Assembly (NCBI GenBank): GCA_020630675.1
Contig: JAHDIR010000017.1
Coordinates: 1 to 57,142 of the forward strand
Direction: 5' to 3'
Source of the DNA: Bdellovibrionales bacterium
GTDB taxonomy: Bacteria > Bdellovibrionota > Bdellovibrionia > Bdellovibrionales > UBA1609
Length of the DNA: 57,142 bases
Shown: positions 31,456 to 38,540 of the stretch, one piece after another
How the letters are laid out: every line of letters starts with the position of its first letter
Position numbering within the stretch: position 1 is the stretch's first letter
The notes under the pieces: generated by a model
Told to the model about the DNA's origin: nothing
Database searches by the model: none
Seen by the model: the letters and a program-made list of their open reading frames with translations, nothing else
Program-made: the position numbers and the translations under genes

Positions 31456-32877
31456 ATGAAGATCTTTATGCCCCTCACCTGCTTTTTATTGATTGGTTTT
31501 GGTGTGAGTGCTGAGCATATTATTGGGGTTCCGCCGGATTTGGTAAAATATGAAATCACCTCTGACGCAAAAAGAGGGTCCTTACAAATTATGGGAACCT
31601 TAACTCCTCCTGTTCTTGTTGTTAATGGCCAGCAAATCAATACCACTCCTACTGAAAAAAAGACGACTCAAGGCCTATTTATTAACAATAACAAGGTGAA
31701 AACAAAGGGTCTTCAAGGTCGTTTTTATAAAGAAATTCCCATTAACAGCGGCACCCAAACCCTTATTTTGGCCGGAAAGCTCAGCGCCCAAAAAGCTATT
31801 CTTAACTCTTCCCCCTTTTTTTTTGAAAAACCTTTCCGCCAAACTCTTTTTTATAAAAAAAAATCAAAGGCAAATTGGTCCCTAGAAGGCCCGCTTCCTG
31901 CTCATAATAGTGTTTACATCCGTGGGCAACTTATAAAGCCCACGCAAAAACAAACCATAGCCCTGCCCATAAGCTTAAAACCTGGAAAACATTCTCTCAA
32001 TTTAAAGATAAAAAATAAAAATCAACGACGTACGGCTTATATTCCTTACACCGTAAAAAAAACAGAAGGCGCTAATGATAAGCTTTTTTTAACAGTTAAG
32101 TCTGAAAAAAATGAACTTTATGAGAACTTTTGGGATATTCCTTACCACGGTTTACACCTCAAACTTTTCTCAACCCCTGAATCCAAAGTGACTATTCATA
32201 ATCAGTCCGTTACAACCAACAGCGATGGCCAGGCCTCACTTCACTTAAAATTCAATTGCCAATCATTGCTACCTAAAGAAATTGTGGTTTCCCTGCAAAA
32301 AGGAAAACAAAACTACTCTTTGAAAAAAAGAGTTCTTAGCTCTGGTTGTCAAAAGTTTAAAAAGAAAAATAAGTCTCGATTTTATTTTGGAATTGCCGCC
32401 GGCCATGTTGGCTTTGTTTTTCCTGAAGCAGGAGCAAGAAGGCCATTATACTCAAGGCATATTAGCCCTGGGCCAAGAACAGCTTTAGGGCTGCGTTTAT
32501 ATGACAAACTTTATTTCGAAGCCCGAGGCTTCAAAACCCAATCTTTTCACAACAAAGAAGGAGACTATTTAAAAAGTTTAGGGGGTGGAAGCTTTTGGCT
32601 GGGATACCCGTACCGAGGTAAAATTTTTGCCGCCATTGGGGTTTTAAACTACACTGCCAGTAGCTACCAAAGTGCTAACAGCAATACTGTTGGTTTTTCG
32701 AACACGCGCTCGACGGGGATTGGATTAGAGTTGGGATATCGTTGGTTTGTCTCCCCGTCTTGGGTTCTCAATGCTCGAATAAGCTACACCCATAAAGAGC
32801 TAAGCTTTCAAAGCCAGCCCGAAAGGCAGTGGCCGTTTCTTATTTTAGAACCTATCGCTATGGAGTTTCATTTTTAA
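31456..32877 (+). CDS. Predicted outer-membrane protein with periplasmic beta domains
   Basis: 473 aa. A signal peptide (cleaved near VSA) is followed by beta-rich domains (20-305) with a probable disulphide pair (FNCQSL, SSGCQK). The C-terminal ~165 residues alternate aromatic/hydrophobic and polar residues (RFYFGIAAGHVGFVF, GLELGYRWFV, LNARISYTHKELSF) and end in Phe, like an 8-strand barrel with a BAM signal. No known family was recognised. Its TAATG junction with the FecR-domain gene implies coupled translation, so it probably acts with that sensor pathway. Confidence 0.72.
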   Translation: MKIFMPLTCFLLIGFGVSAEHIIGVPPDLVKYEITSDAKRGSLQIMGTLTPPVLVVNGQQINTTPTEKKTTQGLFINNNKVKTKGLQGRFYKEIPINSGTQTLILAGKLSAQKAILNSSPFFFEKPFRQTLFYKKKSKANWSLEGPLPAHNSVYIRGQLIKPTQKQTIALPISLKPGKHSLNLKIKNKNQRRTAYIPYTVKKTEGANDKLFLTVKSEKNELYENFWDIPYHGLHLKLFSTPESKVTIHNQSVTTNSDGQASLHLKFNCQSLLPKEIVVSLQKGKQNYSLKKRVLSSGCQKFKKKNKSRFYFGIAAGHVGFVFPEAGARRPLYSRHISPGPRTALGLRLYDKLYFEARGFKTQSFHNKEGDYLKSLGGGSFWLGYPYRGKIFAAIGVLNYTASSYQSANSNTVGFSNTRSTGIGLELGYRWFVSPSWVLNARISYTHKELSFQSQPERQWPFLILEPIAMEFHF

Positions 32878-33857
32878 TGACGTTACCTATTTCTTTCATC
32901 TTAGTTTTATCATTCCTAATTTTCTCTTGTTCTAAAAAAGAGCTAATCACTTCTGCTCCAAAGACTTCACCATCGCCGTTAACACCTGAGGATTTACAAT
33001 CTGAAAAAAACATAACCACAAACAATGAGGGCGATGCCTATTTTGATTTTATTTCTGGAAGCGTTTCTCACAAGAGAGCACAAAAACTCACCTGGGAAGA
33101 TAGCTCTAAAAAAACACCTTTATTCTTGAAGGATTGGATAAAAACAGAAAAGAATTCAAGCGCCTCAATAAATATGACTAATCAACGAATGATTAAAATG
33201 TCTGAAAACTCTCGGTTAATTTTACTTGAAAGAGATGATCAACAAAAATTAAAACGAGCCGTTGTTGGTGTGTCTGAAGGTGACATTACCGGTGAAGTCG
33301 GTCATCAGCCTGGAGAACCTTCGGAGCTCTTATTAAAATTACCTCATGCTTGGTTGCGAGTGAAGTCTTCAGTCAAAGCCGGAGTTAAAAAAGTTTTTCA
33401 AATCAGCTTAAACTCTACAGAAATGAAAATTCATGTCAGCGAAGGTGAACTCGAGGTTATCAACAAAGGTAAAGTCATTAAACTCACGAAAAATAAAGTC
33501 TATAAAAAGATAAGACCTAAAAGCAAACAAGAAAAAAAATTTGATTTTCTGAAGGCTGAATCCCCTCCTGCAGAACTGCCTGATAACTCAAGCCCTAACT
33601 TTCCCAAAAGCAAAGAAGTTAAACAGTTCTCTTTTACTTATCCAAAAAATAAAACTACTTTTAATCAAGAATATATCACTATAAAAGGACTCGCCCCTTC
33701 AGATTCTGAAATTATTTTTAAAGGTCAAAATATTGCTTTAGATAAAAATAAATTTTCTTTAAAAGTTCAGTTAAAAATGGGAACTAATTTTATAACTCTG
33801 CAAGTTATTCGTGGAAACTCCATAGAATACAAAACTATGGAGCTCGAAAGAAAGTGA
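32877..33857 (+). CDS. FecR-domain lipoprotein
   Basis: 326 aa from the ATG at 32877, inside the previous gene's TAA (TAATG). An earlier in-frame ATG at 32829 would hide the signal sequence. The lipobox ends FSC with Ser at +2. A FecR domain follows (about 35-200: FISGSVSHKR, LKDWIKTEKNSSASINM, MKIHVSEGELEVINKG), then a linker and a C-terminal Ig-like beta domain (about 235-326). Classical FecR proteins relay outer-membrane signals to ECF sigma factors; none is encoded here and this version lacks the cytoplasmic anti-sigma tail. The stop overlaps the kinase start (GTGA). Confidence 0.85.
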   Translation: MTLPISFILVLSFLIFSCSKKELITSAPKTSPSPLTPEDLQSEKNITTNNEGDAYFDFISGSVSHKRAQKLTWEDSSKKTPLFLKDWIKTEKNSSASINMTNQRMIKMSENSRLILLERDDQQKLKRAVVGVSEGDITGEVGHQPGEPSELLLKLPHAWLRVKSSVKAGVKKVFQISLNSTEMKIHVSEGELEVINKGKVIKLTKNKVYKKIRPKSKQEKKFDFLKAESPPAELPDNSSPNFPKSKEVKQFSFTYPKNKTTFNQEYITIKGLAPSDSEIIFKGQNIALDKNKFSLKVQLKMGTNFITLQVIRGNSIEYKTMELERK

Positions 33858-35242
33858 AGTTAAATAAAAAAATTATAATTGCTCTTTACTTAGTTTTATT
33901 TATTGGTGTCGCAACGACTTCTATATTTTTAATTCGTGCCAGTGTTCTTGATAAGCAAAACTATATGTACGACTTACAACTCTCACATGCCATTATGATT
34001 ATTAACTCAACTAAAGCCAGCGGCTACAGTGTTGAGTCAAGTCAGAGTCAAATTGAGGAGGCTTTAAGTTCAATTTTAGGAAAACTAGATCATTTAGAGT
34101 CTTTGGGTGTTGGTATTTACTATCGACAAGATGATCGCGTCACTATCTTTAAAAAAGCTCATCAAAGGCATTGGCCGCAAAGTTTAAGCTTACCTCAACA
34201 ATTTTGGGACAACTCCGTTGCGACCAGCTTTCACAAAGACGACCTCATCACAAGTCTTGTTCCAATTGATCAAAAAAGAGCCCTTGTCGTAGTTTCTAAA
34301 GATGACCCAATGTTTGACATGACTATCTCTTATTTAAATAAAACATTACCCTATCTAGTTTTACTAGTCTTCATTATTGGCGCCTTCGGATGGTTTTTTG
34401 CAAAAAAAATCACACGTCCCATTGAAAACCTCAACTTATCAACTCAAGAACTTGCTAAAGGTGAATGGATGGTTCATGTGCCAAGCACCACAACCACTGA
34501 AATTAATGAGTTGGTGAGTTCTTTCAACCGCCTGGGAGGTCAGTTATATTCCCGTGAACAAGAGCTATTAGCCAAAGAAAGGTTATCTGCGCTGGGTACA
34601 TTTAGTGCTGGTATGGCTCATGAGTTAAAAAATCCCCTCAACATCATCTCTTCTTATTCGCAGCTTTTGGAAAGAAAAATAGACCCCGAGAGTAAACAAA
34701 AAAAACATGCAGAGATTATCTCTTCTGAAGTCAAACGTGCCACTAAAATTATTAATGATCTTATGAATTTTTCACGACAAAAGCCGCTTTGCTTGAAGTC
34801 TGTGAATAGCCAAGATTTTTTACAGAAATTAAAAACTAACTTTCACTCTATTCCTAAAAATAGTACCATTCAACTAACTGTTAATGCCAGTCATGAATCT
34901 ATAAATATTGATGAAGATTTATTTTTTCAAGTTATTATTAACTTAGTTGAAAATGCTAGTCATGTTTTAGAGGAACAAAATAATTCATCTCCTCAAATTT
35001 CTGTTTCTATTGCCAATGGGAATAACAACAATGTTTGTCTTGAAGTTAAGGATAATGGCCAAGGTATTCCAAAAGAGATTTTACCAAATATATTTGAACC
35101 TTTTTACACTACAAAAACTGTCGGCAAAGGAACTGGCTTAGGCTTGGCTTTTTGCAAAGGCATTGTTGAACAACATCTCGGAACCATTGAAGTCAAAAGC
35201 CAACCTGGTGAAACTATATTTTATATCAACATACCTATATAA
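33854..35242 (+). CDS. Membrane sensor histidine kinase
   Basis: 462 aa, GTG start overlapping the FecR stop by 4 nt. It has TM1 (about 7-28), a periplasmic sensor of ~130 residues, TM2 (about 164-184) and HAMP (185-237). HisKA follows with phospho-acceptor H256 in AGMAHELKNPLNII, then HATPase_c with N-box NLVENASHVL, G1 DNGQGIP, F-box FEPFYTTK and G2 GKGTGLGLAFC. It autophosphorylates and should phosphorylate the convergent sigma-54 regulator 30 bp away. Coupling to the OMP and FecR genes suggests that they feed its periplasmic sensor. Confidence 0.93.
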   Translation: MKLNKKIIIALYLVLFIGVATTSIFLIRASVLDKQNYMYDLQLSHAIMIINSTKASGYSVESSQSQIEEALSSILGKLDHLESLGVGIYYRQDDRVTIFKKAHQRHWPQSLSLPQQFWDNSVATSFHKDDLITSLVPIDQKRALVVVSKDDPMFDMTISYLNKTLPYLVLLVFIIGAFGWFFAKKITRPIENLNLSTQELAKGEWMVHVPSTTTTEINELVSSFNRLGGQLYSREQELLAKERLSALGTFSAGMAHELKNPLNIISSYSQLLERKIDPESKQKKHAEIISSEVKRATKIINDLMNFSRQKPLCLKSVNSQDFLQKLKTNFHSIPKNSTIQLTVNASHESINIDEDLFFQVIINLVENASHVLEEQNNSSPQISVSIANGNNNNVCLEVKDNGQGIPKEILPNIFEPFYTTKTVGKGTGLGLAFCKGIVEQHLGTIEVKSQPGETIFYINIPI

Positions 35243-35271: not shown

Positions 35272-36663
35272 TTAAGCCACTTTAGAATTAATAGTAATTC
35301 CGTATTTATTTATTTTATACTGCAAAGCCCCTCGAGTAATCCCTAGTGACTTAGCCGTTTGCACCTGATTAAAATTATTATCTTCTAGAGCCTTTATAAC
35401 AATGCGCTCTTCAAGATCATCTAGTCTTTGACTTAAGCCAATGCTATAATCTAACTCATCATAAAAATCTGTTTGGTCTTTAATTTCAGCCAAATTTTTT
35501 GTTGTGTTCATAGTAGTTTTTTCTGAAGCTACATCTTCTAAACAAATAATTGGCTTATTCATATTTAAAACTAACATACGTTCTATTTCATTTCTAAGCT
35601 CTCGAATATTGCCAATATAATGCTTGGTCGATAAATAATCTATCACTTCTGGATCTAGCTGGCTTCTTGAACCTAACTCCGCAGAAAGTACGGAGAAAAA
35701 ATAATTGACGAGCAAAGGGATATCTTCAGTTCTATCACTTAAAGAGGGGGTTTTTACTCTTAATACGTTAAGCCTAAAGTAAAGATCTTCTCTAAACTCT
35801 CCTGCCTTGACCATGCCTTCTAAATCTCTATGGGTAGCAGCAACAATTCGACAGTTTGTTTTTAACAACCTCGTGCCGCCCAAACGATAGAATTCCTTTT
35901 CTTGTAAAACCCTTAAAAGCTTAGCCTGTAAACCTGCGGCTAACTCCCCCACTTCATCTAAAAATAATGTTCCATCATAAGCTAGCTCAAACTTACCAGG
36001 CTTGCTACTTGTAGCTCCAGTGAAAGAACCTTTTTCATGGCCAAACAACTCACTTTCTAATAACTGTTCACTCAACGTCGCACAATTAATGGCCACAAAA
36101 GGTTGAGATTGTCGTTCACCCACTTCATGTATAGCCTTGGCTAATAGCTCCTTACCTGAACCACTTTGGCCTGTAATTAAAACAGGCGTAGGTGCATTGG
36201 CAACTTTTTGAGCAAAGCTTTTAATGCTTTTCAAAGCCTCACTCTCTCCAATCATTTTAGACATTGCTGATTGATTTTGAGATTTTAACTCTTTTTCATT
36301 TTTCCAAGCCAAAAGCTGCTTTATTCTTAAAACTCTATGCTCAAGCTCTGAAAAATCTATAGGCTTTAATAAGTAATCATCAGCCCCCGTTCTTAAGGCT
36401 TCAATAGCATGCTCCAAAGAACTATGAGCCGTCACCATAATAAAGAAACAATCAGTGAATCGCTTTTTGCCTTCTTTGATTAACTCCATACCCGTCATCA
36501 AAGGCATATTGTGGTCAGTAATTACAAGATCTACTTTTTGCTTTTTTAAAAAATCAAGAGCCTCTTGTCCATTTTGACAAATAGAGATGTTGTAATCGTC
36601 TTCCAAGAACTCTTTTAATGCGTTTGAGGCATGAACCTCATCATCAACTAATAATATATGCAT
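35272..36663 (-). CDS. NtrC-family sigma-54-dependent response regulator
   Basis: 463 aa. REC domain (1-115) with phospho-acceptor D50 and conserved K100. AAA+ domain (about 137-375) with Walker A GQSGSGKE, the sigma-54 loop GSFTGA at 212-217 (the usual GAFTGA with A to S) and Walker B GTLFLDEVGEL. A Fis-type HTH (about 430-458, AKSLGITRGALQYKINKYG) closes it. It is convergent with its likely kinase and divergent from a -24/-12 promoter about 140 bp from its start, which is its probable target. Confidence 0.95.
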   Translation of the reverse strand: MHILLVDDEVHASNALKEFLEDDYNISICQNGQEALDFLKKQKVDLVITDHNMPLMTGMELIKEGKKRFTDCFFIMVTAHSSLEHAIEALRTGADDYLLKPIDFSELEHRVLRIKQLLAWKNEKELKSQNQSAMSKMIGESEALKSIKSFAQKVANAPTPVLITGQSGSGKELLAKAIHEVGERQSQPFVAINCATLSEQLLESELFGHEKGSFTGATSSKPGKFELAYDGTLFLDEVGELAAGLQAKLLRVLQEKEFYRLGGTRLLKTNCRIVAATHRDLEGMVKAGEFREDLYFRLNVLRVKTPSLSDRTEDIPLLVNYFFSVLSAELGSRSQLDPEVIDYLSTKHYIGNIRELRNEIERMLVLNMNKPIICLEDVASEKTTMNTTKNLAEIKDQTDFYDELDYSIGLSQRLDDLEERIVIKALEDNNFNQVQTAKSLGITRGALQYKINKYGITINSKVA

Positions 36664-36730
36664 AAAATCTCTTCGGAACCCAGACCAAGGTGCTTAAAAT
36701 AAATCACTCTCTGCGCTTAAAAACCAGCAC

Positions 36731-36789
36731 ATTTTCTCAATAGAAAACAATTTTAATAAAAAATGATTCATTACGAAACAATTTTTCGT
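36731..36789. promoter_or_regulatory. Two inverted repeats upstream of the sigma-54 promoter
   Basis: TTTTCT-CAAT-AGAAAA (36732-36747) and ACGAAA-CAATT-TTTCGT (36773-36789) have centres about 41-42 bp apart, close to four helical turns. They share the CAAT core. They lie between the divergent regulator gene and the -24 element and are candidate binding sites for that regulator. AT-rich DNA makes short palindromes common, so this is tentative. Confidence 0.4.
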
Positions 36790-36798
36790 CATTTTCTT

Positions 36799-36815
36799 TG
36801 GCACTTAAATAGCAA
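36799..36815 (+). promoter_or_regulatory. Sigma-54 (-24/-12) promoter
   Basis: TTGGCAC at the -24 element (GG at 36800-36801) and AGCAA at -12 (GC at 36812-36813), with the required 10 nt between GG and GC. Only the TT of the consensus TTGC is altered to AGC. It faces the two small peptide genes and the 332-aa secreted protein. The transcript should start near 36825, about 35 nt before the first ATG. Confidence 0.75.
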
Positions 36816-36860
36816 TACATATTCACAACAAGTTGATGCAAAAAAAAGGTGGTACGTAAT

Positions 36861-37040
36861 ATGACTTATTTTAACTTTAAAAAAGAAAACCAAAGAAAAG
36901 AAGTGAACAAAAAAATCATACTGTTTTTAGTTTCACTCGTTGTTTTACAAAACCTAATCAGCGCTTACAAAGATAATTCTGAAATTAAATTAACTGATGA
37001 ATCTCGTATCAATACAATTACAAAAGTAGCTACAAACTAA
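36861..37040 (+). CDS. Small membrane or exported peptide (59 aa)
   Basis: The ATG at 36861 has AGGTGG 9 nt upstream; an in-frame GTG at 36849 overlaps that SD and is rejected. The product is 59 aa with a basic N-terminus rich in Lys, one hydrophobic helix (about 22-38) and a polar tail. It is the first gene after the sigma-54 promoter. No family is recognised. It could be a signal-anchored micropeptide or an exported peptide. Confidence 0.6.
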   Translation: MTYFNFKKENQRKEVNKKIILFLVSLVVLQNLISAYKDNSEIKLTDESRINTITKVATN

Positions 37041-37078: not shown

Positions 37079-37225
37079 ATGAAATTACTAATAACAATAC
37101 TAATGACTGTGAGCTTTCTTAGTCTCACTGCTTGCGGAGACGACAGCCAAACAGAAACAGGAGCCGCTTCTTCAACTCTTTTCGGAAACTTAGAAATCAC
37201 TTGTGGTTCTGAGTCATGTTTATAA
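37079..37225 (+). CDS. Small lipoprotein (48 aa)
   Basis: The strong SD AGGAGG lies 8 nt before the ATG at 37079. The 48-aa product has a complete signal with lipobox SLTAC (Cys19) followed by GDDSQ. The mature lipopeptide is thus only ~30 residues with two C-terminal cysteines (TCGSESC) that may pair. It is the second gene behind the sigma-54 promoter. Its last codons overlap the SD region of the next gene, so the three are likely co-expressed. It is the size of a typical lysis or signalling lipoprotein, but I assign no function. Confidence 0.68.
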   Translation: MKLLITILMTVSFLSLTACGDDSQTETGAASSTLFGNLEITCGSESCL

Positions 37226-37236
37226 GGGAGGACATC

Positions 37237-38235
37237 ATGAAAAAGAAAATATTTTTAAGCATAGTTTCCGTTTTATCATTTTTCATTGGTCATCAAGGTT
37301 TTGATGCCCCTAACAAAAAGGCCAGTTTAAGTAGCAAAGTCAAGTTTGCCTCATCCATAAATATGGCAATGGCTTCTACTCCTGAAGAGGATGCCGCACA
37401 AATAGCTATTGGTCTTTGGGAGTTTGCCATTGAAAGTAATGGAGGAGATAAGTCTGTGTATGAATTTGTTCAAGAAATTTTAACAGACTTTTCAAATGCC
37501 ATGATTGCTGAAGGGTTTAACACTTGTAGTGATATACCAGTAACAGGTTCAGTTTTGCTCTCTAACTCAAATGTAACTGTTAGCTTCAGTGGTGCTGACA
37601 AACTAGTTCCTAACGGGAGTCAATGGTTGAACTCAGGTAACCTTTATCAAAAAAAAGCAACGGCATCATATGCTGGCAACGAATTTGCTGAAATTCAATA
37701 TGACTGTTCTAACCATACGAATATATATTTCAAATATGACTTTAACACTTTTGCCTCTCATGATCGCATAGCTGAAATTTACATGCAGAAAGGAAGTAAT
37801 GGTTTGCTCAACATCGAGTTACAAACAACTTGTCAAGATCCCGCAAGCTGCGGAACAAAGCAAAACTCTTACCTTTCTTTTCATACTCCTGATGGTAATG
37901 AAATCAAAGTGATTGGCACAAGAACAGAAGTTAACACTACTGATTTAGCTGTTAGTGTTTCCATGCACGGCTTTAAAGATCAAAAAATGGGTGATATTCA
38001 CTTCATGCTTCACACAGATGTTACAAATAATGAAAGCCTAAACCCAGTTAACCCTTCTGTCACAGGTGTATGTGTAGACTTTAACTCTGCCACTTATATT
38101 CCTGCCGGTGGTGCTAGTGACTGTGTTAGCTTAGGAGCTTCAGCAGCAAACACATTAAACAACTCTGAATCAGATGTTTTTGGCTTAACTGACATTCATC
38201 TTTTAACTATCAATGCCTTGAATGTACTATACTAA
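37237..38235 (+). CDS. Secreted protein of unknown function (332 aa), sigma-54 regulon
   Basis: The start chosen is the ATG at 37237, preceded by GGGAGG; an upstream in-frame ATG at 37216 lies inside the lipopeptide gene. It has a signal peptide (MKKKIFLSIVSVLSFFIG) and a helical segment (about 45-95), then a beta-rich region with six or so cysteines (FNTCSD, YDCSN, TTCQDPASCG, GVCVDF, SDCVS) suggesting disulphides. I recognise no family. It is the third gene of the sigma-54 unit and probably its main product. Confidence 0.78.
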   Translation: MKKKIFLSIVSVLSFFIGHQGFDAPNKKASLSSKVKFASSINMAMASTPEEDAAQIAIGLWEFAIESNGGDKSVYEFVQEILTDFSNAMIAEGFNTCSDIPVTGSVLLSNSNVTVSFSGADKLVPNGSQWLNSGNLYQKKATASYAGNEFAEIQYDCSNHTNIYFKYDFNTFASHDRIAEIYMQKGSNGLLNIELQTTCQDPASCGTKQNSYLSFHTPDGNEIKVIGTRTEVNTTDLAVSVSMHGFKDQKMGDIHFMLHTDVTNNESLNPVNPSVTGVCVDFNSATYIPAGGASDCVSLGASAANTLNNSESDVFGLTDIHLLTINALNVLY

Positions 38236-38540
38236 GTTTTATACGAAGCTTTGAGTTTAAGACTTAAAAAATTAAAATAACGAGCAGCAGCCCCCTCAAA
38301 AAATATTGAGGGGGCATTTACATTTCAAAACAAATACCCCCTAACCTATTTTTTTCTAACGTTTTTATTGAAATAAATGACTTATTTAATTTAATACAAA
38401 GAATACTATTGGAGCCTATAAGTACATTTTTTAGCTCAGATAAAATGTACAGCAACGTGCTCATTTCACTAAAATGGCTACCTTACCTGTAAAGGCTGGA
38501 CTATAAGCAAGCTATATCTAGAGGACTATGAGGGGACAGA
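38236..38540. other. Intergenic region with hairpin 38422-38450
   Basis: It contains the terminator above and, further on, a 9-bp inverted repeat GTACATTTT (38422-38430) / AAAATGTAC (38442-38450). That repeat lies about 90 bp before the next gene and could be an operator or leader hairpin. No sigma-54 element was found here. GAGGGGACAG gives the SD for the following gene. Confidence 0.5.
38290..38315 (+). terminator. Terminator after the sigma-54 unit
   Basis: A 10-bp GC-rich perfect stem GCCCCCTCAA/TTGAGGGGGC with a 6-nt loop, 55 bp past the stop of the 332-aa secreted protein. The following ATTTACATTTC is only partly U-rich, but stem strength and position support termination. Confidence 0.75.

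Follow-up and report, generated by a model that had tools for sequence, protein, structure and literature searches.

Local two-component regulons that depend on sigma-54 have been described in Desulfovibrio vulgaris, where, in the available text of that account, activators with a receiver-AAA+-Fis architecture are paired with inverted-repeat enhancers, promoters follow a tGGcacg/tTGCt pattern and each regulator has few target operons (PMC4641369). All of these traits recur at the locus analyzed here, which lies in a window of 57,142 nt, positions 1 to 57,142 of contig JAHDIR010000017.1 from a Bdellovibrionales bacterium related to the predatory Bdellovibrio. As far as the accessible part of the same account goes, however, the D. 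vulgaris cargo belongs mostly to metabolism, transport, stress, flagella or pili (PMC4641369), whereas the cargo in the window consists of an exported protein and a very small lipoprotein, with genes for a FecR-domain and an outer-membrane protein close by. The window regulator also shares its domain order with AtoC, ZraR and NtrC, but its best NCBIfam scores fall well below the curated cut-offs (403 of 714 bits for AtoC, 376 of 558.6 for NtrC and 334 of 760 for ZraR), so that it is none of these proteins proper, and the neighboring kinase was likewise rejected as an AtoS equivalog (178 of 646 bits).

FecI-FecR is an iron signalling system. As in that system, a FecR domain (PF04773) and an outer-membrane protein adjoin the window regulator, but here the output is a two-component activator of sigma-54, and no sigma-70-family gene that could represent an adjacent ECF sigma factor was found among the 16 window proteins scanned. 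In Bdellovibrio, most attack-phase promoters were assigned to FliA, with its motif in 92 of 140 (PMC3627812), an RpoN-like gene, bd0843, is named in another paper (PMC3464611), and the role of sigma-54 is hardly described in the literature found. No description of the present circuit was found in the open-access literature, as judged by titles and the beginnings of abstracts, and the circuit is of a familiar kind but seems undescribed as a circuit.

The GG-N10-GC box in the leader (36664-36860) that separates the divergent regulator gene from three plus-strand genes very probably functions as a sigma-54 promoter under the control of that response regulator (Table 1). What was a single motif match thereby becomes a complete, testable circuit with base positions for a sensor, an activator, two docking sites, a promoter and three targets.

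Table 1. Features of the proposed circuit and of the adjoining block, in window coordinates.
Feature	Position	Strand	Remarks
Predicted outer-membrane barrel protein	31456-32877	+	Same block as kinase; weak Pfam match
FecR-domain protein	32829-33857	+	Upstream of kinase; lipobox by eye
Histidine kinase (HAMP, HisKA, HATPase_c)	33854-35242	+	Tail to tail with regulator
Response regulator, sigma-54 enhancer-binding protein	35272-36663	-	Receiver D50; AAA+ with GSFTGA loop; Fis-type HTH with RGALQYK
Distal putative activator site TGCTTAAAATAAATCA	36691-36706	+	23 nt further upstream; weak, score 7.0; block identity 0.725
Proximal putative activator site CGCTTAAAAACCAGCA	36714-36729	+	Starts 85 nt before the T of the promoter; score 16.1, p<0.001
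Predicted sigma-54 (-24/-12) promoter TGGCACTTAAATAGCA	36799-36814	+	Sequence read; same box in 4/4 leaders of two other genomes with the locus
59-aa peptide	36861-37040	+	One hydrophobic stretch (by eye); N-terminus conserved in three species
48-aa lipoprotein	37079-37225	+	Lipobox LTAC by eye; tail LFGNLEITCGSESCL
332-aa exported protein, unknown family	37237-38235	+	Signal sequence by eye
Intrinsic terminator-like hairpin	38290-38315	+	Closes the unit

The divergent regulator and its putative tandem sites

The NtrC-type gene that the preliminary description had placed beside the promoter encodes a full Response_reg, Sigma54_activat and HTH_8 activator, although the kinase and regulator genes treated there as a pair lie tail to tail and do not form one operon. 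The loop that contacts sigma-54 reads GSFTGA in the window regulator and GAFTGA in its G003 counterpart, and GSFTGA is among the variants listed as competent for activation in the available text of PMC4641369. The genome carries one sigma-54 gene (PF04552, 217.7 bits) and 12 strong sigma-54 activators, defined by matches over 180 bits, one of which is the window regulator. In a phylogeny, 13 regulators from loci of the system group in one clade (support 1.0) that excludes the 11 other activators of the genome, and the helix-turn-helix motif RG-x-[LF]QYK occurs in 12 of the 13 and in none of the 11. The L010 regulator falls inside the clade, but no unit was found at that locus. When 140 genomes of the order were searched with activator profile A9, nine matches of at least 718 bits were obtained in eight genomes before a drop to 499.5 bits, with the proviso that eight of these matches are members of the profile itself, which makes their scores high by construction.

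Most loci of the clade have in common tandem palindromes resembling TGCTGAAAATTCAGCA, situated 50-110 nt upstream of the sigma-54 site. The matrix describing them was derived from seven sites, all from genera g33 and g29, and the promoters held out from its construction nevertheless contain the motif, with p<0.001 for the window, 0.029 for leader G2a, <0.001 for G2b, <0.001 for G3a, 0.001 for G3b, 0.004 for L011 and 0.003 for L012, in a test that is partly blind, both the genus sequences and the training sequences having been known when the motif was built. Each held-out promoter has another site at a distance of 21-23 nt, as a rule the weaker of the two (the lowest, 3.1, in L011); both G2a sites are weak (7.0 and 5.4). 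Among 17 further sigma-54-like promoters scored, 13 unrelated ones lack the motif (p 0.16-0.99), three that lie close to regulators of the clade (two in L009, and L012:8201) have it at p of 0.002 or less, and one further L011 promoter does not (p 0.84). In a prior, unbiased palindrome search, TGCTTA-N4-TAAGCA had already come out near the top, at -96 to -109 in four of the five leaders from the genus, and in the alignment of all five leaders the conserved blocks are the two palindromes and the promoter, with pairwise identities of 0.725, 0.650 and 0.711 against 0.441 outside them. On sequence grounds, the promoter has a predicted upstream site for an enhancer-binding protein.

The motif is also specific in its placement. 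Within the window, the proximal site is the single match scoring at least 12, where 1.3 would be expected at 12 and 0.07 at 16. Of the 14 loci of the system, 7 have a match of at least 12 lying 35-125 nt before a sigma-54 site scoring at least 18, among them 6 of the 10 from which no training site was taken. The 74 control loci, which carry other activators and total 810 kb, have none, a separation that holds at these thresholds, looser ones (10 and 16) giving eight matches in the control loci. Allowing a sigma-54 score of 17 raises the count to 9 of 14, the additions (L163 and L165) both being training loci. In L160 and L161 the palindromes are strong, but the -24 box is degenerate (TTGGACA, TTGGTCA) and scores under the sigma-54 threshold; contig ends truncate L008 and L162, and L010 shows no motif/promoter pair.

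Control of the promoter by another enhancer-binding protein, or by the neighboring regulator jointly with others, is unlikely. The genome does encode 11 other strong activators, and a second palindrome, TGTTTC-N5-GAAACA, stands at 36764-36780 between enhancer and promoter, but sites of the TGCTGAAAATTCAGCA type track the clade of the window regulator across genera. The TGTTTC motif was considered as the main enhancer and rejected: it was the top palindrome de novo in the five genus leaders (3 of 600 simulations as good) but marginal, it lost significance once the closest leader, G2a, was left out (40 of 300 simulations as good), it showed no genome-wide enrichment in three of the four genomes, and, among its exact copies examined as loci, only that of the window adjoins a sigma-54 site. 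Palindromes similar to the one at 36764-36780 (TGATTCATTACGAAACA) are seen in related leaders, with marginal significance.

A more improbable alternative is that the tandem palindromes serve the regulator's own gene, and that their closeness to the sigma-54 site reflects nothing but a short divergent spacer. The distal site of the window does lie 28-43 nt from the regulator start codon, as autoregulation would have it. Leaders G2b and G3b, however, are located away from the regulator gene, yet the spacing between their sites and the sigma-54 box is the same (-87/-109 and -85/-106, respectively), and in g33 the palindromes adjoin the cargo gene, several genes from the regulator.

The -24/-12 element in the leader

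Direct reading of the element gives T36798-T36799-GG (36800-36801)-CACTTAAATA-GC (36812-36813)-AATACATATT, where CACTTAAATA spans 10 nt, bearing out the exact GG-GC spacing given in the preliminary description. Taking GC as -13/-12, transcription is predicted to start at about 36825, the same position as had been proposed there. Compared with the TGGCAC-N5-TTGCW context, the element deviates at -14, with an A where the consensus has T. With up to two mismatches, TGGCACN6TGCW matches the window 61 times against 63.8 expected, and a loose match alone therefore means nothing. By weighted score, on the other hand, the element is the top GG-N10-GC site of the window (20.0 of 21.5), and Markov simulations predict 0.5 sites scoring at least as high in the window, where one is found, and a probability of about 0.0003 for such a box inside its own 197-nt leader.

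Taken alone, the box is weak evidence, and it is the comparison among relatives that makes it convincing. The box is present in five of five leaders from three species, 40-56 nt before the start codon, with Markov p values of 0.0003-0.006 per leader. For comparison, when the 76 leaders preceding ORFs of 150 aa or more in eight loci were scored, 5 had a site of at least 18.5, four of these five sites having themselves brought loci into the analysis or belonging to the system. In L007 (G002:C21), an extra gene splits the peptide from the lipoprotein and each part has its own GG-N10-GC box (TGGCACTCATTTAGCA and TGGCACAAACTTAGCA); G003 shows the same split, again with a box for each part (TGGCACCATATTCGCT and TGGCCCCGCATTCGCA). 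A paralogous lipoprotein/exported pair of G002, L118, has neither a GG-N10-GC box in the 400 nt upstream nor a palindrome, indicating that the cargo can exist without the switch. Even though loose matches are as common as expected, an equally good site is expected in about every second window and the L118 pair does without a box, a chance GG-N10-GC in AT-rich intergenic DNA, with transcription of the unit from some other, unrecognised promoter of sigma-70 or another type, is exceedingly unlikely, since the same box recurs at the same distance in all five genus leaders, most related loci of other genera also have it next to a regulator of this clade, and no sigma-70-like site was found in the leader.

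From the sequence elements and their co-conservation with the regulator clade, both directly observed, we infer the signal, phosphorylation, binding and looping steps of the circuit. A cell-envelope signal, for which the outer-membrane and FecR-domain proteins may act as relays, would reach the kinase, which would phosphorylate D50 of the regulator. The regulator would then assemble on the two tandem sites and loop to the sigma-54 polymerase, where ATP hydrolysis via the GSFTGA loops would open the promoter. A single transcript, running from about 36825 to the terminator-like hairpin, would yield the membrane peptide, the 48-aa lipoprotein and the 332-aa exported protein.

Exported products across the Bdellovibrionales

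The unit had been described as three exported genes, which fits the lipoprotein and the 332-aa protein, judged by lipobox, signal and membrane assignments made by eye, and fits the first product less well, a short peptide in which a single hydrophobic stretch is seen. For the first gene, ATG 36861 is the most likely start codon, in preference to GTG 36849. The 332-aa protein has no match in Pfam or NCBIfam, and none of the exported proteins could be placed in a known family. It was found in two of the three other genomes of the genus searched, the third being 64% complete, and in none of the 35 other relatives searched. A PDB sequence search with query A1 returned a best E value of 0.037, judged to be chance, and two AlphaFold2 predictions from two-row alignments, with mean pLDDT of 45.8 and 35.9, are too poor as models for a fold search. 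Surface display, signalling and prey contact are all candidate roles for the exported proteins.

Several further observations concern the copies within the genus. G002 holds two near-identical regulator genes (L007 on C21 and L008 on C213), each with its kinase block, on contigs that break in repeats, and the L118 pair, on G002:C59, is additional to both. An ECF sigma factor gene (L117, 3841-4395) lies near the G003 copy of the unit; no counterpart was found beside the unit of the window.

Outside the genus, searches with the FecR profile returned 10 of 140 genomes of the order at E<=1e-12 and 9 of 143 in the class at 1e-15, and revealed the FecR-kinase-regulator block in genera g33 and g29, with the L165 contig ending before the kinase; another locus found with this profile, L166 (G026), was read and has no such block. 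Three g33 loci present a GG-N10-GC box followed by a lipoprotein of 47-49 aa and an exported protein of 338 aa, while in g29 (L160 and L161) a degenerate box precedes a lipoprotein of about 430 aa. In L011 and L012, where the regulators share 44% identity with that of the window, the box is followed by a lipoprotein of 45-47 aa and an exported protein of 216-218 aa. No homology was detected between the exported proteins of the different genera (hmmsearch --max, E values of 0.64 or worse), which implies that the switch is more conserved than its cargo. In L170 (G081) and L171 (G090), both of genus g29, the enhancer motif (20.2 and 18.5) and a sigma-54 site precede an apparently cytosolic protein of 63-64 aa (NNQN.S.R...MEAELKFLWQEA).

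These relatives point to retention of the control device alongside turnover of the exported products, a pattern that would provide a handle for finding fast-evolving surface proteins in these bacteria. Tentatively, the locus may represent a portable envelope-sensing cassette of the Bdellovibrionales, comprising outer-membrane and FecR-domain proteins, a kinase and a sigma-54 activator that is private to the cassette and acts through a tandem enhancer of its own. The output slot of the cassette would have been refilled with unrelated proteins in different lineages. Such refilling of the output, be it a tiny lipoprotein with an exported protein or a larger lipoprotein, would be expected of rapidly changing surface or prey-contact proteins.

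Extent of the regulon

Near-consensus sigma-54 sites outnumber the reversed pattern in all four genomes of the genus. Allowing one mismatch, TGGCACN6HGCWATA and its reversed pattern match 22 and 7 times in G000, 23 and 2 times in G001, 36 and 8 times in G002, and 31 and 6 times in G003; among the targets read are lipoproteins and small exported peptides, as well as a flagellar locus whose FliM was assigned by eye from its translation. A genus-wide exported regulon under one regulator was considered and rejected, since the other sigma-54-like sites before exported-protein genes lack the enhancer. Across nine genomes, the combined enhancer and promoter pattern yields 27 matches against 5 for its reversed version. 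Four of these sites are in G000, and only that of the window (16.1) scores at least 12; the next best G000 site with both elements, C37:41667, has a motif score of 9.7 and is unproven. The search covers near-consensus sites, so further weak targets are possible. In its own genome, the circuit looks like a single-target switch, and the regulon of the window regulator is probably local and single-target. The original interpretation of the locus is hence upheld as to the promoter and the neighboring regulator, sharpened from a regulon to a local and probably single-target one, and weakened in the term exported as applied to the first gene.

Other sigma-54-like sites were noted in the same genomes. 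In L126 (G002:C1, 2500-6800), at 125-2234, the site TTGGCACGAATTTAGCTACA precedes a 106-aa peptide with a leader-like N-terminus, followed by an unplaced 336-aa protein and a weakly nitroreductase-like protein, an arrangement that might be a modified-peptide cluster. A family of exported peptides of 73-76 aa (AGTGM.N.DCP), represented by L123 2038-2259 in G002 and L125 2013-2243 in G001, lies between ferredoxin-like and CheY-like genes and has a sigma-54-like box in both species. Lastly, a VWA-domain lipoprotein (GCGGVTFDTP) is preceded by a sigma-54-like box in two species, at L121 724-2289 (G002:C38) and at L180 (G003:C52).
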